NCBI GenBank assembly: GCA_947034885.2
Contig: OX344757.2
Span: 5,952,001 to 6,016,000 of the forward strand
Direction of reading: 5' to 3'
DNA from: Thuidium tamariscinum
Taxonomy: Eukaryota; Streptophyta; Bryopsida; Hypnales; Thuidiaceae
Length of the DNA: 64,000 nt
Positions 1,971 to 60,085 of this stretch are shown here, piece by piece. A program made the translations under genes and the position numbers. Under the pieces are notes generated by a model. The model did no database searches. It was not told the DNA's origin and was given only the letters and a program-made list of their open reading frames with translations. Numbering within the stretch: position 1 is the stretch's first letter; every line of letters starts with the position of its first letter.

Positions 1971-3620
1971 GCCGGCCAAGCTTCCAGCGCTTCCACCTAC
2001 GTAACACCAACAGATCCCTCGACCAGCCACAACTTCCGTCGCCCCAAAACACAACCCTCCTTCCTCTCTCTACGCGCACTTCAGAAACCTCCGTCTAGAT
2101 GTTGCGTCCACTTCAGCTCCGTTTCTGCGCGCAAGCACTGTAGTTCCCAGCTTTGTAACCTCGAAGTTGACCATTCCGGGCAATTTACAGAAAGGATATC
2201 CTTGGGAACGGGGGGGATGGTACGGTTGGGGTGTACCCGGGGCCGGGTTTTACTGAAGTACACCACCCACCATTTTCAAACCCGAAAGGACGCTTTGGGG
2301 CGGTTGCTTCCGGGGGAGGCTTCAACCTGCACTGAATGACGAACGAGGAGCAGAATCAGGCGCGGATGCCTTCCATTTACCTCTAAATATAACTTTTAAA
2401 CAATATTCTCCTGGTAGGCTGGGTCCCAGTCCAGTTGGACAAATCGGTGGTGAAAGGATTTAAGAAAGGACAGCAGTATCGTCTTCCTCCTTTGCTTCGG
2501 CCAGGTTTATCTTAACGAAATGCAGACCTGGAGGTGCTTGTAGTAATAAAACATTCGATCGTTGGGGAGTTCGCCAATGTTTATTAGGATTGATTCGCCC
2601 ACCCTCATAGAGACACTTGTGAATGTACTGTAGTTGCGATGACTGCGCACGCTAATCCGTAAGATCGAGTAAGAATTTGACACTTAACACCAAAACTGCC
2701 TGAACTCTGGAAACCACTTTCAGCACCTTTTTTTGAAAGCTTACATTTGTACTGCTCGAAGCCTCTCACCAGAGCATTCACTCGCCTTGGCTAGCTCCAC
2801 GGAAACCGCCAATTTGAAAGTTCGCCCAGTCAAACAAGTGTGAACTGATCGACAGGATGATACAATTGCTTCTATTGAATTTCAAAGTAGCAAACTACTG
2901 AGAGTTGACTCACATCGTTCGGTTACTGTCAGAAATCTTGTGATTACAAACGCCACTTCCGCGAAAGAATATTCTTATTAAGTCAGTGCCAGAATTGTAA
3001 ACAGGCTATGGAAAACAGATAGAATTCGGTGAGTTACGACGAAACTGAGCAGCAATAAACCCAATCTAAGACGGCTCTCACGATCACCCTCCAGATTCGC
3101 AAATGTGGGGGCCATTAAGGAGAATGACGACACACTCGAGGGAGAAAAAAAATCCCTGACGACAACTGACTGAGTGACTGGGACGGAGAGATAATTTCGA
3201 GGTGAAATCATTTTTTTCAAACTGAATGAAGGTCAGGCCGGTACAGTTGGAGATGACGAGGCGCGGCAACCCATGCGACTGATTGACTGCAGCTTCGAGG
3301 AAGCGGGGGACATGCATGCCAGGTACAATGAACCGACGCGTTCCGTACGGGGGTACGGAAAGCGTGGTACGTCCGTGTACCATCGGGGACGGCTGGATTT
3401 TTGGCGCCACGCCCCGGGCTGATAAGGTCGTGGGGTGACCAGCACGACTGCTGCTGCTGTCCGAGGGCATCCGGTAGGCCACATTATGTAGACTTTGGCT
3501 TTGGTCTTCTTACGAAGTGTTATTTTTTCATTGTCCTTGCAGAGGCGAAGGGGGCTAAAGGAGGGAAGAAAATCAATGCCACAAAGAAACCCACTTCACG
3601 TGGGTGGAAAATACCGACAA
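1971..3620. other. 5' flank of the MYB gene
   Basis: This is the upstream (minus-strand promoter) side of the MYB gene and has no recognisable coding sequence. On the minus strand a TATATTTA-like box lies near 2385-2400, a weak TATA candidate. Two GTAC-rich patches (about 2216-2265 and 3330-3400) resemble one another and a third at 14955-15070. Frames on the minus strand at 2978-3484 look like shadows of moderately GC-rich non-coding DNA. Confidence 0.35.
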
Positions 3621-3630
3621 TTGAATGTAA

Positions 3631-3971
3631 GCTACGTGCACCCATAATCGACACTAAAATGCAATTGACTGAACTTATAACTAAAAAACATCACTACAAA
3701 AAAGAGGGGTGTTTTTTAAAAAGTCCTATCCTGCAATCAGTGATCTTTTAGGAGATCTGTAGTAAAATTTTACTAGACATGCATGTATTTTGAGTAATAT
3801 TTTACTAAGATTCTCTTAAAAGATCAATAAATGTATAACTACATAGGAATACATTACAAAGACTATACTTCAAGGACCACTTTCTTTTTGTTGTATATAA
3901 ATTCTTTCTATTAGATCTTGTTGGCAAGAGAATGCGGTTCCCAAAACACTGTAGCATGTAGTATTTGAGCA
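3631..3971 (+). repeat. X repeat, copy 1
   Basis: A segment of about 341 bp starting gctacgtgcaccc that recurs as a close direct copy at 4411-4755. It contains an internal imperfect palindrome around gatcttttaggagatc and aaaagatcaataaat, so it may itself be a small foldback element. No coding potential. Confidence 0.85.
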
Positions 3972-4410
3972 GGGTCATTGCAAGAAACACTTGTACTATT
4001 TTGTGTCACATGTTGCATGCTGGTCAGTTTTTTGGCCATAACTTTTGTATTTTAGCTCCAAATGATTCAAGATTTATAGGGAAGGTACTAATAACTATTA
4101 TAAACCTTCCTTGATTTTTTCATAATTTTTCAAAAATAGTTTACTATCCAAAAATAGACCCCGATTGGATGTCACACTTGGCAGTTTAGGGGTTTTTAGT
4201 ACCTGAGCTATACCTTTTTTTGATGATTTTGAGATGAAATTTGGATGAGATGGTCTTCTAGTAGATTTATAGCTCTCCAGGGAAGGATTTTTAAAAAAAG
4301 TTAATTTTGTGAGGTGTGGAGGTCTACAAAGTGAGCTCCCTTCTGGTTGTATTTTGAAACATATAAAATATTATTTTGGTGGGTTTTTTTGTGAATGACC
4401 ATATCCATAA
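3972..4410 (+). mobile_element. A-family TIR element, left part only
   Basis: Begins GGGTCATTGCAAGAAACACT, the shared A/B/C terminus, and matches the first 435 or so bases of the complete A element at 18106-18840. It breaks off at a point inside that element (after gaatgaccat) and runs straight into X copy 2, so the right end is missing. No coding sequence. Confidence 0.8.
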
Positions 4411-4755
4411 GCTACGTGCACCCATTATCGACACTAAAATGCAATTGACTGAACTTATAACTAAAAAACATCACTACAAAAAAAAGGGTGTTTTTTGAAA
4501 AGTCTTAGTGATGTAGTCCTACAATCAATGATCTTTTAATTAGGAGATCTGTAGTAAAACTTTACTAGACATGCATGTGTTTTTAGTAATATTTTACCAA
4601 AATTTTCCTAAAAGATCATTAAATCTGCAACTACATAGGAATACATTACAAAGACTGTACTTCAAGTACCACTTTTTTTTATATATAAATCGTTTCTATT
4701 AGATCTTGTAAGAGAACGTAGTTCCCAAAACACTGTAGCATGTGGTATTTGAGCA
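4411..4755 (+). repeat. X repeat, copy 2
   Basis: Direct copy of 3631-3971 with scattered substitutions and small indels, for example a short insertion before gatcttttaattagg. The two copies bracket a truncated A-family element, which suggests that a tandem or unequal-exchange event captured the transposon fragment. Confidence 0.85.
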
Positions 4756-5568
4756 CTAAATTAACAAGTTACATAATTTCAAAGTATTATGTGAAGGTGC
4801 ACCAAACATCAACTTTAGGCTTTGTTGAGCTCTCATATTTAGAGTGTATACATCTTGTATACATCAATATCTAAGCTTTAGTTTAGTTTTTTCGTCCAAA
4901 TTTAGGGATTATATTGTAGGCAATGATGATTACAAGTTCAAATACCTTTTTTATTAGAAATTTGTATTCCCACTTAAACTAGGGTAGATATTGGCCTTAG
5001 CATACCTAGATAATATAGCCATTGGAATTAGGGTTTGGGATTTTGACCATGATTTATCATTTGTGGAAGAATGCCATTACATTTCATCATATAATCTTCA
5101 ATCATGATTGGTACTATATAAGGGCAATAAAAAGCAAATACTTTAAAAAGGTAAAAACTTTAATTCCAAAACTCTTCAAATTTATTTCATTTAAACTTTC
5201 ATTACCATTCTCAACTTCATCATGAATGAGTTGAGAAGATCTTTTGTCTTCATATAATGAAAGGCAATGCCCTACTTCAATTCTTGCCAAAGAGACAATA
5301 CTAATTAATAATTTCAATTTGAAACTGATTATGTTTTTCCAATAGAGGATTTTAGCAATTTTGTTGATGTTAATTTGAGTTTGAAGAAAATTAGACTTTG
5401 AAGAAAATTAGACTATGAGAAAATGATCCAATAGATTTTGAAGTTGAGTGGATTGAACCAATCCATTTCTATACAAGGAAAAAATGAATTAAGAGAGCTT
5501 CAAAATTTTCTTACCAAACACTTGGAGAACATTCAAATACAGAAATGGTATTTTGGGGGGGCAAAATA
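4756..5568. other. AT-rich intergenic DNA
   Basis: AT-rich sequence without a recognisable gene or repeat boundary. Short open frames near 5022-5317 on both strands have no family resemblance and look accidental. Confidence 0.4.
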
Positions 5569-10080: not shown

Positions 10081-11399
10081 TCTATCTCCAAAAAACAATT
10101 CAAAAAATCATAACAAAAATTGAACCTATAGGTACCTATTTGTTATCTAATTTGTCCTTTGAACAAACAATGGTCTTTTTAAGGGTCAAAGAACAATCAT
10201 CTTATCAATTGAAAATGAGGCTGTCTACAATATCAACAAAGATGTTCTTCCAAAATATTCTCAAAGGTGTCACCAACATTCTTAAGTGTAGATGTTGCAA
10301 TCCTAATGGAAGTCCATATATCATACAAAATACATCAATTCCTTGAAGTTGTTTGAATTGTCACCATCAAAGTTGCAACTTAACCCTTGATCGCACAAGA
10401 GCTTCAAATCTAGCCTCTCCAATTTGAAAGGTTCTTTTGTATTGACTCTTAAAATCTTTTCAATAGTATAGTCAAATCATTCATCCATTTCTCCATTGCT
10501 CTAAGGTTGTCTTTACTACCTATCAATACAGTTAGTTTTGTCAATGTTGGTTTTAATGATAGTTTGATTGGAATGAGAGTAGTAGGGTTTGGATTTTGGT
10601 AAACATGAGTTGGGCACTCAAGGTTTAAAGGTTGATGGGTGATTACAAGAAACACATGTACATTTCTTGTATTTTTTATTGTCAGCATTTTAGTACTTTT
10701 TGTACTACATGTTGCATTTAGTACTATTTGGGGCATTGTAGAACATGAAATGGCTAGAAGGTCAATTGGATTTCAAATCTATTGTTTTGACAACTTGGAA
10801 TAGTGATCATTACAAGGCTAGGATAGATGGCATAACTTAATTTGAAATAGAAAATAGTTTACATTGATAGATTGGAGGCTCTATAGGCCCACAAGCAATA
10901 GAATCAATTCTTTTTTTGAACCTCAAAATACAATTTTGATCCATAGGCTACAAAATTTGCTAGAAAATGAGACTTCTACAATTTTATATTCAAAAATAAT
11001 AAAATTCATTTGAATATTTAATTTTAAAAGTGGCCATCGCTACCAAGAAAGAGCAAAGAAAGAAGACTAAAGCTTGAACTAAAAAAACAAGTTTAATTCA
11101 ACATAAAGTCTACTTAAAAATAACGCACTTTAGGCCAATGCAAAATACACTTTGAACATGTTTTTGGAAATCTCTCTACTATGAAGGTGCATTTTTATTG
11201 GAAGAGCTAGCAAACCAAATTTGACAATGTAATTCTTCAAAAAAGCTACTTGATTTTTGCACTGTGAAGTCGAATCCTACATATTCTCGACCCTGACACG
11301 TTATTTATTTATTTATTTATTTTTCAAAAAAAGAAGTTTTTTTGAACTTATTTTCATATTTCAGGATCCAATTTTTAAAAAATTTATTGTTATTATTAT
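10081..11399. other. AT-rich intergenic DNA with an A-family end
   Basis: Mostly featureless. At 10637 a GGGTGATTACAAGAAACACA terminus begins, followed by about 100 bp of A-like sequence (ttttagtac, acatgttgcat), so this is a decayed A-family left end. Open frames at 9978-10346 and 10449-10736 match nothing I recognise. Confidence 0.4.
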
Positions 11400-18105: not shown

Positions 18106-18840
18106 GGGTCATTGCAAGAAACACTTAACTCTTTTTTGTCACATATTGTGTGTTGGTCAATTTTTTGGCCATAACTTTTTCATTTTAGCTCCAAATGACT
18201 CAAAATTTATAGACAAGGTACTTGTGACTATTTTACACACTGTGTATGTTTTGGAATTTTTCAAAAAATGTTTTACTATTTAATATTTATCACCAATATT
18301 ATATTACACTTGTCATTTTTGAAGTTTTTTAAACAAAGTAGTACCCCCAAAACTAATTTGGATCTAAAATTTGGTGGAAATGATCTTTTAGAATTTTTTT
18401 TATCTAATGTTCAAAGTATACTAAAATAAAAATGATTAAATGTCACATAGAAGTCCACAAAGTGAGTCACTTTTTGCTTGCATAAATTTCAAAACATGTA
18501 AAATATTATTTTGGTGGGTCTTTTGGTGAATGACCATCTCTATAAATTTTTTGCAAATGAAATTTATTTATTTTATTTATTTGAGTTTTTTACTATTTTT
18601 AAAAATTAAAACATTGAAGTATTTATTTTCTTGAGATTTGATACTTTTCTAGTTCCCCTACCTAGAGTTTTTTTAACAAATTTTCTTTGATAGTTACCCT
18701 TCACCTTAAAGGTACATAAATTGGCCATATTTTTTTTTAAATTCAAAAATGATTTTTCTAATTTTAAAGTTCTCCAAAAGATTTCATGAGTAGTGTTGCA
18801 AAACGTAACAAATAATACAAGCGTTTCTTGCCGATCACCC
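18106..18840 (+). mobile_element. A-family TIR element, complete
   Basis: 735 bp, bounded by GGGTCATTGCAAGAAACACT and its inverted partner (CGTTTCTTGCCGATCACCC), with a perfect 4-bp target duplication TAAT at 18102-18105 and 18841-18844. AT-rich, no open frame of interest. This is the reference copy for the A family; others are at 3972, 20052 and 57543. Confidence 0.9.
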
Positions 18841-18844
18841 TAAT

Positions 18845-20051
18845 AGACTTGCTGAAAATATGTATACAATATTTTAGACCAATTAGACCAATTTATTATG
18901 GTTGTCTAAATTGCCCCTATTTCAAAAATAATGTCTTATAGAGGCGTATATAACTTTCAAATGACAATTTGGACTATTGTTAAAATTTCTAGGCATCAAA
19001 CTAAATTTTAAGAAATAATAGCTCTAATGAAAAATTTACAAAAATTCAACAAATATTGCACCAAGAAGGTTTAGTCCAAAAATAAAAAATGGCTTGAAAT
19101 CATACCTCAAGGCTTCAAAAATTAATCTACATTGCCAAAGTGTCTAAGAAATTTTTCATACATTCTCATACAAGTCTAATACAAGATTCTATATTTGAGT
19201 ATGCAAAAATAGTTTGTTTTCATTGTATAAATTCCAATGATGCTTGTATGTGAGTGTAGAAGTGTGAGCCTATGAGCCTTGAGTCTAAATAGAAGTAAGT
19301 GTTCTATACTCATTGAAGGTGTTTATAACATAAAGACCTATAATATAGGTGTTTAGAATATAGATACACTATAACCATTGAGATGTGTATAATATAGACA
19401 CCTATACTATGCTATAGGTGTATGGAGTTCTATGCTCATAGGCTCACACTTTCTATGCTCACATACTAGCAACTATGGTATTAGTTCTTTGTGTGTAGAA
19501 ATTTTTTCAATTTTGAAGAGTTTTTTTGGTGAAATCTATAAGAATTAAGTCATTACTAATAAGTCCGATGATTATTCTTTACACTTAAGGCAAATTTCTA
19601 TGCAAGGGAAATTGAAAAATATGCTCAAACAAGATAAAAGGGATTCTAATTTTTTGTATAGAAGTATACAACAATTGTTCACAAAATTAGAATTGTTGAT
19701 TGGCATTGATTTGGATGAGGCTAATGAATAGTAGAGGATCAACCATTTTATTCTTGGAAAACCAAGAATAAAACAGTATGTAACATTATAGTAACATCAA
19801 GTATGTGCAATGAGGAACTATGAGCTATAGTTTGAAGAAAACATATGATAAAATTCCTTGATGCATCCAAATTTGGTCAATTGTAGTTTGGATTCTCATT
19901 TTTTTTGTCTTCTTTGTTAAAATCCTTCTTCTAATAATCCTTCTACAAATTGGGATTCACTTTATAATAACCTCTATAATACGTTTTGATTTCTCTAAGA
20001 TTGAAAATAGGACAAAGCTCTTCCTAATATGCATTTTTTGGATTCAATGAT
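18845..20051. other. AT-rich DNA with a foldback
   Basis: Contains an inverted repeat with arms 19236-19282 and about 19420-19475 (gtgtgagcctatgagcc and its complement) around a core that also pairs (acctataatataggtg, acacctatactatgctatag). It is probably a decayed foldback MITE. The rest is featureless. Confidence 0.6.
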
Positions 20052-20937
20052 GGGTGATTGCAAGAAACACCTATACTATTTCATCATTTTCATATCGTAG
20101 GTTATAGGTTGACCCTACTTTTAGGCCATGACTTTTGCATTCTTGCTCCAAATAATGCAAAATTTATAGACAAGGTAATCATGACTATCGTACAGTTTGT
20201 CTTATTTATTGGAATTTCAAAAAAATATTTTACCATCCAAAAATAGACCCCAATTATATATCACAATATTCAATTTTGGAGTTTTGTGAGCAAAATAGTA
20301 CTCAATCAAATAAATTTTGAGTTGAAATTTGGAGGAGATGGTCTTCTTATAGAATTGTTACTATTGTCTAAAATACTTCTAAAAATAATTAATTTTATAT
20401 AGTATAGAAGTTTACAAAATGAGCTTCACTCAATTGGCATTTCAATACATTAAAAATATTATTTTGGTGATTCTCTTAGTAAATGACCATCTCCACAAAG
20501 TTGTTACAAATAGAAAATTTCATTTTGTTTATTGATTTTGTTTATTTTTTATTAATTAAAACATCAAAATATTTATTTTTTTGAGATTTGACACTTTCTT
20601 AGTTCTCCTAGTTAGAAAATTTTCCTATGCTTTTCTTTTAGTGCTTACCTTTATCTTAAAGGTGTATACATTATCTATATTTTCAATTTTTTTTATTAAT
20701 TAAAACATCAAAGTGTCTATTTTCTTGAGATTTGACACTTTTCTGGTTTTCCTAGTTAGAGAATTTTCCTATGCTTTTCCTTTGGTGGTTACCTTTATCT
20801 TAAAGGTGTGTACATTATTTCTCTCTCTCTCTCTATATTTTAAAATCTAAGATTATTTTTAAAATTTAAAGTACTCCACAAAAAATCATGAGTATTGTTA
20901 AAAAAAGTGCAATAAATAGTGCAAGTGTTTCTTGCAA

Positions 20938-22429
20938 GGGTGATTGCAAGAAACACTTCACATTTTTGTCTCAAAAATGCAATTTTTGGCCACAAGTCTA
21001 GTAGTACTACTCGATACTACTAGTGTTAGCATAGTATAGGTAAATCTAAACCGTCAATTTAGGGTGCTTGGGTCGTTGCAAGAAACACTTACCGGTTTTG
21101 TCTCAAAATGGCTCAAAATTAATGAGTCATGTGAGTCCTGTGACTTTTGGAATAAAATTTTTTTTAATTGAAAAAAATATAGATAATTTGAAGAGAAATG
21201 AGAATATTATGTCTCTTGAAATTCAGACCTAAGAAACTTTTTCTCTAAATGTTATAGACAATAGAAAATACAATGAAAAGAGATCTTTTTTCACTAATTT
21301 GGTAAAAATAGTAAAAAAAATTAAAAATTAAAATTAAAAATTCATTTTTTCTCCAAGTAAAGGTCTTTCTTTTCCAACAAATTTCATCTTTGGAAAAAAT
21401 AAATTCTATTCTCTACACTTGCGCAAAGTCAGCCACTTTGACAACATGTGGAGGTTGGACAATATAGTATTTTCAAAAAATCTCTTTGAGGTCTTGTGTA
21501 ACTTTAAGTGAGGTCCTTGCATGCCAATTTTCAGCTCAAAATTTTCTTTTTTGGGTCAAAAATAGGACTTAAACCCCCCAAAATGGCCAAAGTAGATACC
21601 CAATTGGGGGCAGTTTAAAAATAGTAAAATAATTTTGAAAAAATTGAAAAAATTACACAAAATGTAAAACTTTTGTAGGCACCTTCGTTTCAAGTTTCAA
21701 GTCAAATTAACAAAAGATGAAAAAGTTATGAGCAAAAAACTACCTACTAAAGGTCAAGGGGACAAAATAAAGGACAAGTGTTTCTTGCAATCACCTGCTT
21801 GCAAATCTCAACCATCAATTTAGTACTCTATAATACTATGCAATACTATAGACTGCTACAAAGTACTATACAAAGGCCACTAGTAACAAAAAATAGTAGA
21901 AAAAGGGTTTGTGGACCTTTTGTTTTTAGGAATTCAAAAGAAATTCAAAACATTATTTTTAAGAAATCCATTTTTTTATACAAGATTGTGCTCTTATTGC
22001 CGCAATAAAGAATTCTTCTAAGAAACATTTTCCCTCTCCGTAGCCTTTGCACAAAGGAAGGTCACTTTGACCCCATGTGTACAAAAGACATATTGCTATT
22101 TTCATAAAAATTCATCATCGGTCTTTGTAATGTTAGAAGACCTCTAATTTGTCCAATTTGTGACTTCAAATTTGGATTTTGGGTCAAAAATAGGAATGAA
22201 ACTTCCATTGAAATGGCTAAGGAAGACACCCAATTGGAGGCATGTTAAAAATAGTAAACTAATTTTAAATTTTAAAAAAAATTACTCAACATCTAATACT
22301 TTTGCCTGTACCTTCAATTCAAATTTCAAGCCAAAAGAACAAAAGATGCAAAAGTTGTGAGCAAAAAACTACCTATTGGAGGTCAAAGGGACAACTGAAA
22401 AATATGATGAGTGTTTCTTGCAATCACCC
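20938..22429 (+). mobile_element. B-family element, inserted in the A element's own TIR
   Basis: Ends GGGTGATTGCAAGAAACACT and GTGTTTCTTGCAATCACCC, with a perfect GCAA duplication at 20934-20937 and 22430-22433. Net length after removing the nested C element is about 761 bp, the same as the 756-bp B copy at 43878-44633. It contains tagtagtactactc-type short palindromes near the left end. Non-coding. Confidence 0.9.
21070..21796 (+). mobile_element. C-family element, innermost of three
   Basis: 727 bp, starting GGGTCGTTGCAAGAAACACT and ending AAGTGTTTCTTGCAATCACC plus one mutated base. Perfect 4-bp duplication GCTT at 21066-21069 and 21797-21800. The other B copy (43878-44633) has the uninterrupted sequence at this point (gtgcttacaaatct), which confirms the empty site. 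Non-coding. Confidence 0.92.
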
Positions 22430-22438
22430 GCAATCACC

Positions 22439-43877: not shown

Positions 43878-44332
43878 GAGTGATTGCAAGAAACACTTGC
43901 CCTATGTTTTGTCCCCTTGACCTCCAACAAGTAGTCTTTTGCGCATAACTTTTGCATATTTTTCATTTTTGGCTTGAAACTTGGAATAGAAGTTCACACA
44001 AAAGTTTTAGATGTTGAGTAATTTTTTCAAAATTTTTAAAATTAACTTACTATTTTTAACTTGCCCCCAATTGGATGTCTACATTGGCCATTTTGGATTT
44101 TTTAGCCCTTTTTTGACCCAAAAATCTTAGTTTCAAATCACTAATTGGACAAGTTTGAGGTCTACTACCATTATAAGGATTGAAAATGAGTTTTTATGAA
44201 ATTAGCAACATGTCTATTGCACATTTGCACACATGGGGTCAAAGTGACCTTCCTAGGTACAAAGGCTACAAAGAGGGAAAAAATTTCCTAGACAAATTTT
44301 TTATTGCAATGTGAGTACAATCTTGTCTAGAA

Positions 44333-44373
<41 letters not shown>

Positions 44374-44633
44374 ATTATTAAAGATAAAAAGGTTGACAAA
44401 TCTCTTTTTTGCTATTTTTTGCTACCAATGGCCTTTGTAGTACTTTGTAGTAGTCTACAGTACTACATAGTACTGACAAACGATCTAGATTTGCAGGTAC
44501 CTTGATCTGACGGTTAAGATTTGTAAGCACAATGTTGACGCGCAATATTGGTAATATTGCACAATACAACTAGTCGAATGGCCAAAAACTGTATTTTTGA
44601 GACAAAAATGTGAAATGTTTCTTACAATCACCC
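43878..44633 (-). mobile_element. B-family TIR element, complete
   Basis: 756 bp, ends GAGTGATTGCAAGAAACACT and TGTTTCTTACAATCACCC. The flanking 4-mers ATTT (43874-43877) and ATTC (44634-44637) are a one-mismatch target duplication. Contains an (at)n(ag)n microsatellite at 44332-44372. It is the uninterrupted counterpart of the nested B copy at 20938-22429, in opposite orientation. Confidence 0.85.
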
Positions 44634-47285: not shown

Positions 47286-48378
47286 AAGGTAGAAGGTCCT
47301 TAACCCCTAAACCCCTAACAGCGTTTTCACCAAAAAAAACTGCTCCAAAACTGCCATTTCTAATACAAGAGCAATTTTTTTTAAAACACATTTTTGACTC
47401 ATGTAACCGTAGGATCTTGTAGTAAGGTGGTTTGTAAACATGTGGAAAAAATTTCAGAAATTTCCACCATGTAGATTGCAAGATATAAGCATTCAAATTG
47501 ACAAAAACTGTTTTTTTATCCCTGCGAAAATCCGGGCAGCTGCACTTCACAAGGTCACATTTGTGTGAAAAAAAATTCAAAATGGTGGTTACTCTTTGAA
47601 TTCTTACTTCAATGTAAGTTGGCTACATTCTCAAAAAAATTCAAACCATTTGGAATTGTACAACATATAGGAAAAAATAAGTAAGTAGAAAGAAGTAAAA
47701 AATGAGCCAAAATACTAAATTGTGAACATTTTATTCATGGAATTGAAAATTTTCAATCCCAATGGTTAAAATGTTGAAATAAACAATCTACACCTTTTGT
47801 TTTTATTTTTTTTCAAAAATATGAAAAATTGAATTAAATGAAGAATTTCAAACTTTTTTTGTGCTGTGCAGATTCTGTAACTGGCCGCAAACTACCCCAA
47901 ACTTAAAATCTTGATAACTTTTGACTCATTGATCGAAATGGATTGATTCAAAGCTTCACATGTCTGTATAAACCTAAAGAACCGATTTGAAATTCCACTT
48001 TTCAAAAAAATGTTTTTTTGAAAAGTTTTTTCAGCTGCCCGGGCTGCCCGCCGAGCAAACAAAGTAACATATCATGCCATAACTTTTTATCCACAAAGTC
48101 AAAAGTTATGAAAATTGTTGGGCCTTAAAGCTACTCCTCGGACACACATTGTATCAAAATTTCAAAGAAACAAAATAAAAACTCCATCCGTAGTGAGCTG
48201 CCCAAAAAATCTATAATCTCAAAAAACGCTATTTAGGGGTTTAGGGGTTAAATGGAGTAGGTTTAAATGTGTTCTCTATCTAGGAATGAATGACATACTC
48301 CTTGAAATATCTAATACTATCATTGATGAAGTAGGTAGGCTTAAACACTCGATTTAAAGACCTCCTACCATAGAGGTT
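47286..48378 (+). mobile_element. T-family MITE T5, interrupted by P2
   Basis: Starts TAAGGTAGAAGGTCC (47286) and resumes after the P2 insertion as ttaaatggagtagg, ending about aaagacctcctacca. Without P2 the element is only about 145 bp, so it is a short or internally deleted T copy. Confidence 0.75.
47304..48247 (+). mobile_element. P-family element P2 (TTAA-flanked), complete
   Basis: 944 bp between TTAA at 47300-47303 and 48248-48251. Ends CCCCTAAACCCCTAA and TAGGGGTTTAGGGG. Non-coding. It forms an inverted pair with P3 across a 536-bp spacer. Confidence 0.9.
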
Positions 48379-48783
48379 GAGCACCCTAAAAAAAAATACT
48401 TGGATTATATGCCATAGTGTATAATTTTCACTGAGTCATTCCATGTAGGGCCAAGGCACAATATTCAAGTTTGTAATTATGCCTAGCACAATATTCTTCA
48501 TTACTAAATGTAGCGGGAGTTCTCCCACTATACAAAAACTAATTCAAAAGTAGTGCATTCTTATGCAATAATAATTTACATGTATATAGTATCCAATGTC
48601 AAGAAATTAGTGAGGAGCAATCTAATTTCACTATTTTGTATAGTTTCAAAATCAAAACAGAACAACACAATTGTTCATTAGTGTCAAAAAAACAAAAATT
48701 AACCAAAAAAACAATACAATTATTATTATACAACTGTAGAATACAATACTACATAGGGGGGTCAACTACACTAAACAAGGGTT
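48252..48783. other. Spacer between inverted P2 and P3
   Basis: AT-rich, includes the tail of T5 (to 48378). No gene seen. Confidence 0.5.
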
Positions 48784-48787
48784 TTAA

Positions 48788-49729
48788 CCCCTAAAGCCCT
48801 GAACATCATTTCTTGAGATTATAAATTTTTTGGGCAACTGACTATGGATGGAGTTTTTATTTATTTTTAATTGAAATTTTGATACAATGCGTGCCTGAGG
48901 AGTAGCTTTAAGGCCCAACAATTTTCATAACTTTTCACTTCATGGTTAAAAAGTTATGGTAGGATATGTTGTTTTCTTTACTTGGCGGGTATCCCGGGCA
49001 GCTGAAAAAACTTCTTCAAAAATACTTTTTTTAATAAGTGAAATTTCAAATTGGTTCTTTAGGTTTATACAGACATGTGAAGCTTTAAATCAATCCATTT
49101 CGATTAATGAGTCAAAAGTTATCAAGATTTTGAGTTTGGGGAAGTTTGCGGCCAATTACAGAATCTCTACAGTACAAAAAAAGTTTGAAATTCTTCATTT
49201 AATTCAATTTTTCATATTTTTGAAAAAAAATAAAAACAAAAGGTGTAGATTGTTTATTACAACATTTTAACCATTGGGATTGAAAATTTTCAATTCCATG
49301 AATAAAATGTTCACAATTTCATGTTTTGGCTCATTTTTTACTTCTTTTTACTTACTTCTTTTTTCCTATATGTTGTACAATTCCAAATAGTTTGAATTTT
49401 TTTGAGAATGTAGCCAACTTGCACTGAAGTATGAATTCAAAGAGTAACCACCATTTTGAATTTTTTTTCACACAAATGTGACCTTGTGAAGTGCAGCTGC
49501 CCGGATTTTCGCACGGATAAAAAAATAATTTTTGTCAATTCAAATGCTTATATCTTGCAATCTACACGGTGGAAATTTCTGAAATTTTTTCCACATGTTT
49601 ACAAACCACCTTACTACAAGATCCTACGGTTACATGAGTCAAAAATGTGTTTTAAAAAAAATGCCCTTGTATTAGAAATGGCAGTTTTGGAGCATTTTTG
49701 GTGAAAATATAGTCAAAAACCTTTAGGGG
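48788..49729 (-). mobile_element. P-family element P3 (TTAA-flanked), complete
   Basis: 942 bp between TTAA at 48784-48787 and 49730-49733. Ends CCCCTAAAGCCCT and AACCTTTAGGGG. Very similar to P2 along its full length but in opposite orientation. Frames at 48956-49270 and 49456-49704 are shadows of this repeat. Confidence 0.9.
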
Positions 49730-49733
49730 TTAA

Positions 49734-50471
49734 GGGGACCCATACTAACTAACTAACCAACATTTCATACTGTATAAATATCTACCTTAGTTGCACATGA
49801 ATAGTTATTGAAGTGTGCGGTGGTTGCACATCATATTTCAAACATCTATAGTTTTCCAAAATAAGTCCCTTTAATTTTTTGGTCCCTTTAAAATAGCTAC
49901 TCACTTAGAATTTTTAGTATGTTCCTACTTCCTATTGACTTGTCTTAAGATTTGTTGACATTTCTAATCCACATAAATATTTCAAGTTAGACTTCTTTCT
50001 ATAGGACACTAAATCTTCCATTCGAAGTGGACCTAGCAAGGTAATTTTTGGCTTCTCAGAGGTCAAAATTTTAAAAAATGGCTTCTTTAAGGTATGTTCT
50101 AGATCTCTCAAAGTTATTGTGGGGTCTGTGATTGCAAATATGAATTCAGAATCTGCAAAAAAAAATTATGTGAAAAAAATAAAAATTCCTGCATTACCCC
50201 AAAGTAAATCCAACCTGCTAAATTAGGCCTGCTTTGAATGGAGGACTTACTGAGTGTCCTCCCTTCTTGAGTCAGTCTTCTGCAAGTCAAACTTCTTCAA
50301 TCAAACTTCTTTTTCATCTGCTTGGGGGCCTTTGGGAGTTGCTGAAAACATTGCAAACATCATGACTGTGTGGCATGTATGTAAAAACATCTTATGTGTA
50401 CACTTCAAAAGACAAAAAAAATTGGCTGGTTTAGCAAGTTCTTTTGATGTAGCCAACCATTGTTGTCCCAT
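49734..50471. other. AT-rich DNA with U and F repeat pieces
   Basis: 49765-49900 is the inverted U repeat (see 37590-37725). 50120-50215 shares gattgcaaatatgaattcag with the F foldback at 53208-53677. No gene. Confidence 0.45.
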
Positions 50472-56047: not shown

Positions 56048-56867
56048 TTTTAAAGGATGGACCTATAACCAGTGGCTTTAGGCTTCATTGCCCATCACTA
56101 AGTTTCTTGTGATTTTGGAACTAGATATATATTAAACAAGATTTAATTTCAGAGATAGAATTACATGTCTTCTCTCCCTCACAGAAAATTTAGATTTTTT
56201 AGAAGAAAATTGATTTTTCTGAGAGTTTTTGAAGGAAAAATGAAGTAAAAATCTCATCAAATAGAAAATTATTCCCAAAAACCTGAAATATTTACCATGT
56301 GTGTACATTATAGTCATAGTGACAAACATTATGGTACAAACTCAATTTCCGTGTCCTTCTGTAATTAGAATAAAATGGACATTGAAAATACATCCAAAGT
56401 TCAAATTGCTATAAAATATTCAATATTATGAATTTTTCAAAAATTCTACTTGGATTAAAAATTATAGTACATGGCCTCCATTTTATTAGTTGAGTTCAAA
56501 TTGAGAAAATGTCATTTTCAAGGAGGAATTTCTGATTTAGAGCAAAAAGCAAAATACATTGAAATAGAAAATTTTGCCATCTGTTTTTCTTAAACTTACT
56601 TCTTATTCATATCAAGACAAATACTAGCAAGAGTACAAACTTAATTAGGTACTCTTCATAACCGTTTATGAAAGGTCAACAAGGAAAAAATGGATGAAAA
56701 AACACTTTCCATCTTAGATTGTTGCAAGAAACACTTATCATTTTTGGCTCAAAAATGGCCTAATTTGATGAGTCTTGTGACTTTTGGAAGAATTTTTTTT
56801 TAAATAAAATAAAATATGGATAATTTGAAAAGCAATGAGAATATTGTGTCTCTTATTTGGCCACATG

Positions 56868-57425
56868 TAAAATTTGGCAACATAGTGATTTTGGATAGGT
56901 ATGTGTGAGTGGATATTTTCATATTTTGGACCCAAATTTTAATAGAAGGTGGGGATGAGGAATACCTTTGACGTGTACAAAAAAATAAAGACATTTGAAA
57001 ATATGAGTCAAAAGTTATGGCCTAATATGCTACTTTTTTCTACTTCTTATTTTTTTCCTATATGTTGTACAATCCTAAACAATTTGAAATTTTTAAGGGA
57101 AGTATCCGACTTGGCCTCAAGAATGAATTTAAAGAGGCACAAATGTTTTGGACCATTTTCATATGATTTTTGCCTTCTGAAGTACAATTGCCCTATTTTC
57201 CACAAGGTGAAATTTGTTTTTGAGCATTCAAATGCAAATATCTTGCTATCTTCAGTTCTTCACGATGAAAAATTCTGAAATTTTTTGCACATGTTTTCAA
57301 ACTAATTTACTAGAAAATCTTATGGTTACAAATCTCAAAAAAAAATTTCAAGAAAAAATTGATATTGGTACTAAAAATGGCAATTTTTGACTAGTTTTGG
57401 TGAAGACATTGTCAAGGAACCTAAG
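56868..57425 (-). mobile_element. P-family remnant P8 inside the C element
   Basis: Shares with P3 ctatatgttgtacaat, cttctgaagtacaattgccc, atcttatggttaca and a right end gtcaaggaacctaagg, the decayed CCCC-type terminus. It occupies a gap relative to the intact C copy, so it was inserted after C. TTAA sites are no longer recognisable. Confidence 0.6.
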
Positions 57426-57542
57426 GAGTCAAAAGTAAGACCTAAGAAAGTTTAAGTCTAAAAGTTATGCACAAAAAAAGTACAATGGAAAATACAATGA
57501 AAATAGACACTTTGATGTTGGATTTTTTTTAATAGTAAAAAA

Positions 57543-59314
57543 GGGTGAATGCAAGAAACACCATCCATTTTCCTTAGCATTTTGGAAATGGACGTTTTTT
57601 TTTTGGGAGTACTATTTAATTAGAAAATCAATTTTAAAAAAATACAAAAAATATGTACAATGTATACACCTTAAAGAAAAAGGTACCCTATGAAGGAAAA
57701 ACTTAGAAAAGTTCTCCAAGTAGGAGAACTAGAAAAGTGAAAAATCTCATGAAAATGGGCGTATTTACATTTTAATTTGTAAAAAATAGGAAATTTTTTT
57801 TTTCTTAAATTTAAGAATTGGAAATTTGGAAAGAGTTGATGGTGATGAAATTTCACCAAAAAAATAATCTCAACTCCATTATCAATGGTCAAAAATTGTG
57901 TGCAATTGGAGTGTTGTTTGTATACATGTGGAGGACATAAAATAATGTATCTTTAGAATTCCTTTAGTAGGAATATGCTTTTCTACCATAAAAATGCAAC
58001 ATGAAAATTTCAGCTTTAGATCATTAAATTTGGGGACTCCTAATGTAGTAAAATCCCTAAACCTCAGTTTGTGACAAATTAACAAAAATGAATTTTAAAT
58101 ATGAAATGATTTTTTTTTAATTTCTAAAAAATAAGGGATGTGAAAATCATCAAGTTAGAGAGTTCCAATAATTATTTCATGTTTTCAAATCTCTTAATTC
58201 AAAAGTTATAGAAGAAAAGAAAAATGTCACTTCAATTGTGACAGGAAATAGTCTGACCAGTGTTTCTTGCAATCACCCTTGTGTTATTTGTTGCGTTTTT
58301 GTTTTTTGCTGATTTAGTACTATGAGTACTACAAATATTGTGAGTATTATATGGGGTTCAGAAGAAGAAATGTGGACCGTCTATTGAAATTCATATCTCT
58401 GGTTATGAAGAGACAGGGATCAAAGGTTAAGGATCATAAAGTTGCCTTAAAAACAATCTATAGTTGTAGATCATAGAAAGGAAGTCTACATTGTACAAAA
58501 TGTGGGCCCACCCTATTGGCCGCGAGAAGCCTCGCGGCCTCTCTCCGTGCTACGTTCGTGGGTGGTTGCCCGTATTGGGATCTCTTCTCATTGTGTGTGT
58601 GCGTTCGTTTTTGTTGTGTCTGTCCCCCCTAGCCACTTCTGGCGGGGTGGTTTGTATTTTTCTTTTGCAATGAAATCTTGTTTCATTTGTATCCAAAAAA
58701 AAATGTTGGCCCCCACTAGGACTATATAGTCCTATTGTGTATCTTGGAGTCCTACTTGAAGATAGGAGCTCATATTTATGCTAGAAATTCATAGTTTTAC
58801 ATTTCTATTTTTAGAAATGATTTAGATCATTCAAAAAATTAATATTAAAAATGGCCATTCTTCCTACCTTGGATCCCTTATCAAATATTGAAACAAAAAG
58901 CAAAATTCTATCTTTTATTATTAAAAGATTCATTGTAAATATTGCTCATTTTAGGCCCCCATAGAAATTTATCGCAGTAGGCAATCAAAAATCCTTCTCC
59001 TAAAAAGTTGTATTTTTATAATAGGAAACACTCTGCAAAATTTCATAATGTAACTTTTCAAAAAAGGTACTCTATAATACTAAAAACTTCTGAATTGTCA
59101 TTTGTGACATTCAATTACTACTTCACTAGTACTATTTTAACATTATACTATTTTTGAAAATTATGAAAAAATTAGGGAAGGTTTATGATAGTCATGAGTA
59201 CCTTTTCTAGAAACCTTAAGTCATTTGGAGCTTAAACACAAAATTTATGGCCAAAAAACATATCAACACTTAAATTGTGATGCAAAATAGTACAAGTGTT
59301 TCTTGCAATCACCC
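57543..59314 (-). mobile_element. A-family element(s), TSD AAAA
   Basis: The outer boundaries (GGGTGAATGCAAGAAACACC at 57543; AAGTGTTTCTTGCAATCACCC at 59314) have AAAA on each side and the same orientation of interior as a reversed A copy. Inside, a second A-type end closes at 58278, so 57543-58278 (736 bp) is bounded by both TIRs. What follows (ttgtgttatttgttgcg) is the subterminal part of the outer element with its own TIR missing. It looks like one A element that landed in, and replaced, the terminus of another. No coding. Confidence 0.75.
58510..58699 (+). mobile_element. 5'-truncated retroposon (LINE-like tail)
   Basis: A GC-rich block of about 190 bp ending in tttgcaatgaaatcttgttt ... 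and a poly(A) tract, flanked by aaaatgtgggccc (58497-58509) and aaaatgttggccc (58700-58712), a 13-bp target duplication with one mismatch. Variable-length duplication plus A-tail is the signature of target-primed reverse transcription; the tail resembles plant LINE 3' ends. No tRNA-like promoter boxes seen, so a SINE is less likely. Confidence 0.8.
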
Positions 59315-60085
59315 AAAAATTCCAGAAAAATTAATAGTAATCCATTTTTCCTAACCTCAAGATGCTTCCCTTCAACCATCTTCATCTTTGAGAAAAATAA
59401 ATTGTGTTTTGTACATGTGTTCAAAGGTAGTCCACTTTGAGCACATATAGAAGTTAGTCAATTGACTATTTTTAGAAAATTTCTTTGTGGTCTTGTGTAA
59501 CTTTAGAAAAACTGAAAAAGTCCTTGTATGCCAATTTTCAGCTTAAAATCTGCATTTTTGGATCAAAAATAGGACAAAACCCCCCTAAAATGACCAAGGT
59601 AGACATCCAACCGGGGGCTATTTAAAAATAGTATAATAATTTCAAGACAATTTTAAAAATCAAATTGTGTTTAGAACTTTTATATGTACCTTCGTTTCAA
59701 GTTTTGTGTAAAATAGACAAATGACGCAAAAGCTATAAGTTAAAAACCACTTATTCAAGACGAAGAGCTAAAAAATAGGAAAAGTGTTTCTTGCAATCAC
59801 CTTCTTTTATTCTTTATCTAGAGACTCTTCTGATATTCCAAAATGCCACAGATAGGCACCGGTGGCCTTTATGGAACCTCAGGTGAGATTATTAATAGGG
59901 CCATGTCAGACTGGGAGTTGGGAGTTGCGTACACGAGTGTCTTTCTAGAGCTTTGGCTTCAATTCACACACGTAGTCGCGTACTCGCGTACTCGCCTTTT
60001 ACTCATCACATTACCATTCAGTGTCCAGCTATCCACTTGGCTACTGCTGACTACTGTTAAATGTAGAATACTCCACACCATCGAC

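Follow-up and report, generated by a model that had tools for sequence, protein, structure and literature searches.

Nested copies of a probable non-autonomous transposon family with 4-bp target-site duplications in the moss Thuidium tamariscinum

To our knowledge, none of the five superfamilies of plant MITEs makes a 4-bp target-site duplication. Plant MITEs were sorted primarily into five superfamilies in a 2025 survey of 207 genomes (PMC12550479). Sola2-type elements of social amoebae are described as making AT-rich 4-bp duplications and as having terminal repeats that are either 12-13 bp long or 21 bp long and imperfect (PMC3627910). A review table gives Sola1 for the moss Physcomitrella (PMC9033089). 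Ginger1 and most Ginger2 elements also make 4-bp duplications; they are described with ends of the form TGTNR, terminal repeats of 40-270 bp and the targets CCGG/CCGT or RTATAY (PMC2836005). The family that we describe here resembles the plant MITEs (Stowaway, Tourist, and the Mutator-, hAT- and CACTA-type elements) in being short, non-autonomous and high in copy number with terminal repeats, and differs from them in its 4-bp duplication; its members are about 730 bp long.

We analysed a stretch of 64,000 nucleotides of the Thuidium tamariscinum assembly GCA_947034885.2 (contig OX344757.2, positions 5,952,001 to 6,016,000 of the forward strand), referred to below as the window. It carries genes of plant type: of seven reading frames compared with Pfam, one each of three matched MYB, isocitrate/isopropylmalate dehydrogenase and cytochrome P450. 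An initial reading made from the letters alone (the sequence-only reading) had proposed a three-level nest of transposons with exact 4-bp duplications. When checked base by base, element C (21070-21796, + strand, 727 bp) is nested in element B (20938-22429, + strand, 761 bp without C), and B is nested in the right terminal repeat of element A (20052-22438, + strand, 891 bp without B). C is flanked by the target duplication GCTT (21066-21069 and 21797-21800) and B by GCAA (20934-20937 and 22430-22433). Rejoining the flanks of A across B restores a terminal repeat in which only one of the 20 bases is mismatched, and it is this repeat that shows the empty site of B. The nest and its two inner duplications stand as proposed, so that two of the three levels have exact duplications; the duplication of A itself is not recoverable, with TGAT before 20052 and TTTA after 22438. 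The interior of A also carries a 130-bp duplication (20545-20674 and 20689-20818, 90% identical).

The copy at 43878-44633 (- strand, 756 bp; flanks ATTT and ATTC, one mismatch) had been taken for the empty site of B, which was a misassignment. It is an intact relative of B that lacks C (74.2% identity to B minus C over 779 aligned columns) and therefore supports the empty site of C in B. The same is supported by an intact 757-bp relative elsewhere in the genome, at locus L054, which is flanked by ATTC on both sides.

Further members of the family are present in the window. A relative of A at 18106-18840 (+ strand, 735 bp) has the duplication TAAT on both sides and one extra base in its right repeat; it was read from the sequence, as the automatic pairing of ends missed its last base. 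A second nest has element D as its outer member (56716-59802, + strand; duplication TCTT, four mismatches in the left repeat) and contains unit E (57543-59314, + strand; duplication AAAA), within which there is a further right end at 58278. The left part of unit E, 57543-58278 (+ strand), is a whole 736-bp element with flanks, AAAA and TTGT, that do not match. To the right of 58278 the sequence resembles the left end of another element, in its inner edge and body, and it extends as far as the right end at 59314. Most simply, one element would have inserted at the left repeat of another, and the outermost ends would then have moved both together. Deletion after nesting is a possible alternative to joint movement, and in AT-rich DNA a duplication that reads AAAA carries little weight. 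By eye, unit E also includes a GC-rich stretch (58520-58700) with a run of A at its end, which may be a transcript that was captured or the tail of a retroelement.

Two partial members complete this set. At 3972-4410 (+ strand) there is the left part of a related element that has lost its right end and is 70% identical to 18106-18840 over 448 columns. Similar stretches flank this truncated element (3700-3971 and 4480-4757), and by eye the second of them resembles its empty site (GTATTTGAGCACTAAAT). A single left end at 10637-10656 (+ strand, two mismatches) is followed by sequence unlike that of the sampled elements.

The terminal repeats of the family are about 20 bp long (GGGTGATTGCAAGAAACACT) and start with GGGTG; its termini are GGGTGATTGC ends. 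The exact 20-base end occurs 3256 times in the genome (1596 + 1660 on the two counts; 363-Mb assembly, 19 contigs), against 0 + 0 for a control in which the end was read backwards. In the window, 14 matches with up to three mismatches were found where 0.00 were expected from 100 shuffles. When 114 ends were examined, the first 700 bp behind 97 of them matched sampled elements along 80% or more of their length, a count in which self-matches are included; the other 17 ends gave no such match. One rare end type has only two copies. An exact scan of a prokaryote collection for the end returned no match, and three pieces of the end sequence were absent from the paper texts searched.

We assembled 44 distinct two-ended elements of 690-780 bp (mostly about 715-760 bp) from the window and loci L001-L054, a sample with a bias, as L001-L050 all lie within the first 11.7 Mb of a single contig and were selected for having one end perfect. 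The two copies of the duplication agree exactly in 31 of the 44, differ by one base in seven, by two in three, by three in two and by four in one, leaving 13 elements without an exact duplication. The shared end, the nesting and the 4-bp duplication, first noticed in the window, thus hold in a sample from the genome. Tabulated across 59 candidate pairs that were chosen less strictly, some of them paired by chance, the duplication is likewise 4 bp long: 30 pairs are exact at 4 bp (2.2% for shuffled partners) and none match at 3 or at 5-10 bp. Twelve pairs match at 2 bp, and seven of these match at 4 bp too (ATAT or TATA). The 30 exact duplications are AT-rich and have no fixed motif, with ATAT occurring four times, TATA three times and each of the others once or twice. 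Two marks of a terminal-repeat transposon, inverted repeats on many copies and a target duplication of constant length, are both present in this family.

The same end had been described as bounding different interiors. A common end is indeed borne by several interior types, and the interiors are only partly different. In local alignments, B and C have about 380 bp in common at 74.6% identity, A is 71-73% identical to the element at 18106-18840, and the interior types are linked at 66-70% by some 230 bp of end region. Given these shared stretches, the interiors appear to be mosaics drawn from one old stock. The identity percentages of one earlier comparison, in which the reverse-complement control scored 79%, were discarded, and local alignments were used instead. 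Every one of the 44 elements has a match of 500 bp or more in some other element of the sample, with a median best identity of 90.7% (range 69.7-95.6), while most of the duplications remain exact. Within the elements of this window, stop-to-stop frames do not exceed 110 aa. Among the sampled loci there is also a 1080-bp foldback member (L015:441-1520) with long inverted arms, the family ends and the duplication ATCT.

A coding relative was sought from a list of 100 of the 3256 exact ends, all on contig C1; 30 of these ends were taken as 3-kb loci and 20 were read in stretches of about 10 kb (three of the 20 are also among the 30). No coding relative with the same ends was seen in these loci and stretches. 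Ten long frames from them were compared with Pfam and matched a kinase, a retroelement integrase, WRKY, Dof, Sina and a gag/pol piece, with four falling in no family. Ten further frames, of L042 and L033, gave weak alcohol-dehydrogenase matches below the cut-offs, read as a host gene, and one match at chance level.

Genes of known or suspected transposable elements were counted in the whole genome. Transposase_21 (PF02992) had 627 candidates and DUF7869 (PF25273) had 855; 150 of each were scored, and all 150 were above the cut-off in both cases. MULE genes gave 33 matches. The DUF7869 frames reach 1076 aa and form two score groups, the domain was found in 0 of 14 control genomes, and the literature searched makes no mention of it; it looks like a transposable-element gene. 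We then compared gene positions with a list of exact ends that is complete for the first 11.7 Mb of C1 and beyond that consists of subsets of 448 and 416 of the 3256 genome-wide. On C1, the distance from gene to listed end was 8 kb or less in 1 of 34 cases for the CACTA type, 2 of 12 for DUF7869 and 0 of 5 for MULE, and against this incomplete list none of the three kinds of gene was convincingly linked to the ends.

The window also holds two mutually inverted copies of another repeat of about 950 bp (47299-48251 and 48781-49734), with ends like TTAACCCCTAAA and with relatives in several loci. A segment downstream of a DUF7869 frame (L055:647-934) matches 49450-49734 at 81%, so DUF7869 may belong to this repeat family, or a copy of the repeat may have inserted there.

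We conclude, with a probability of about 0.88, that the nest belongs to a large MITE-like family of cut-and-paste DNA transposons that are non-autonomous and make AT-rich 4-bp duplications. A single transposase, or several closely related ones, encoded at another place in the genome would bind the ends, excise the element and join it to the target across a 4-bp stagger, and repair of the stagger would leave the duplication. Elements with mosaic interiors would move alike because only the ends would matter, and two neighbouring members may travel together by their outermost ends, as 57543-59314 suggests. A trans-acting transposase with a recognition site of about 20 bp and a 4-bp stagger would explain why the duplication is constant, why mosaic interiors have their ends in common, why long frames are lacking and why nests arise. 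We infer movement in trans rather than observe it, since a transposase with these ends was not found. The proposal that one transposase serves all of the elements is plausible, on indirect grounds: the occurrence of one end on several interior types and the probable two-element unit with a duplication of its own speak for it, yet no transposase with the ends was found. We regard the elements as a new family of non-autonomous terminal-repeat transposons with 4-bp duplications, for which anatomy can only suggest a superfamily.

As to which transposase this might be, the length of the duplication and of the ends would make the Sola superfamily (Sola1 or Sola2) our best guess, with a Sola transposase elsewhere in the genome moving the elements; we offer it tentatively, as less likely than not. 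The listing of Sola1 for a moss, Physcomitrella, also speaks for it. A 4-bp duplication is a criterion of Sola and is what this family makes. Its repeats of about 20 bp and its AT-rich duplications resemble the amoebal Sola2 elements, whose repeats are short and imperfect (12-21 bp; PMC3627910). However, no Sola transposase is linked to the family ends, and the likeness is one of described anatomy.

Other superfamilies fit less well. CACTA elements duplicate 3 bp and have ends that start with CACT. The inner part of the end studied here (GCAAGAAAC) resembles the plant CACTA end, CACTA-type transposase genes are abundant in this genome (the 627 Transposase_21 candidates), and the one C1 match near a listed end lies 7 kb from it, with the end facing the gene. 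Nevertheless, the family has GGGT rather than CACT at its ends and a duplication of 4 bp, with 0 of the 59 pairs matching at 3 bp, and in the fully listed part of C1 none of the seven matches is within 14 kb of an exact end; we regard an aberrant CACTA-type (CMC) group as unlikely. Slightly less likely still is a group akin to PIF/Harbinger whose duplications would be of unusual length. A GG start is frequent among Harbinger ends, and the GGGTG ends have it, but the Harbinger duplication is the 3-bp TWA; here the 59 pairs include 30 matches at 4 bp and no match at 3 bp, and the duplications lack the TWA form. We give marginally less weight again to DUF7869 as the gene family encoding the transposase of these elements. 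It is plainly multiplied in this genome and absent from the controls, and two of its 12 C1 matches are close to a listed end; however, one of those ends is part of an intact 757-bp element that is distinct from the gene, and the other points away from it. The 3' sides of two DUF7869 copies are also without such an end: the best candidate in L053, about 0.7 kb beyond the stop, has eight mismatches, and that in L055, about 1.2 kb beyond it, has seven. The least probable source is a transposon of the MULE, hAT or Ginger kind, which we consider very improbable. MULE genes are present, but MULE and hAT duplications are 8-9 bp (8 for hAT), whereas none of the 59 pairs matches at 5-10 bp, and none of the five MULE matches on C1 was near a listed end. 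With a measured 4 bp set against these duplication lengths, the family does not appear to fit any of the common plant superfamilies, as the sequence-only reading had claimed. Ginger shares the 4-bp duplication but differs in its TGTNR ends, its longer repeats and its specific targets, and is excluded by ends and targets (PMC2836005), since the family has GGGTG ends and mixed AT-rich targets.

Repeat-like sequence was present at the insertion site in 4 of 41 insertion rows, compared with 35 of 5000 random positions in the window. Three insertions at the family's own repeats are convincing, namely B, L050:2747-3503 (also given as 2747-3524) and L050:201-923, the last at the repeat core only. L006 was dropped as weak, and the row 19606-22429 is a false pairing. 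Because B was the initial finding and the other two share one locus, a preference for own terminal repeats is a lead only. A bolder reading is that the transposase lies outside the described superfamilies, cuts with a 4-bp stagger, accepts mosaic interiors and element pairs, and is drawn to its own repeats so that nests would build themselves. We consider this reading doubtful, if a little less so than a CACTA-type origin.

The reading that we prefer, a MITE-like family moved by its ends, bears on genome annotation, as an annotation built on five superfamilies could misfile such a family. If the preference for own repeats is upheld, it would provide a countable test of self-targeting in the formation of nests. 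Thousands of ends with a firm 4-bp signature suggest that a further engine, perhaps Sola-like, has taken part in shaping this plant genome.
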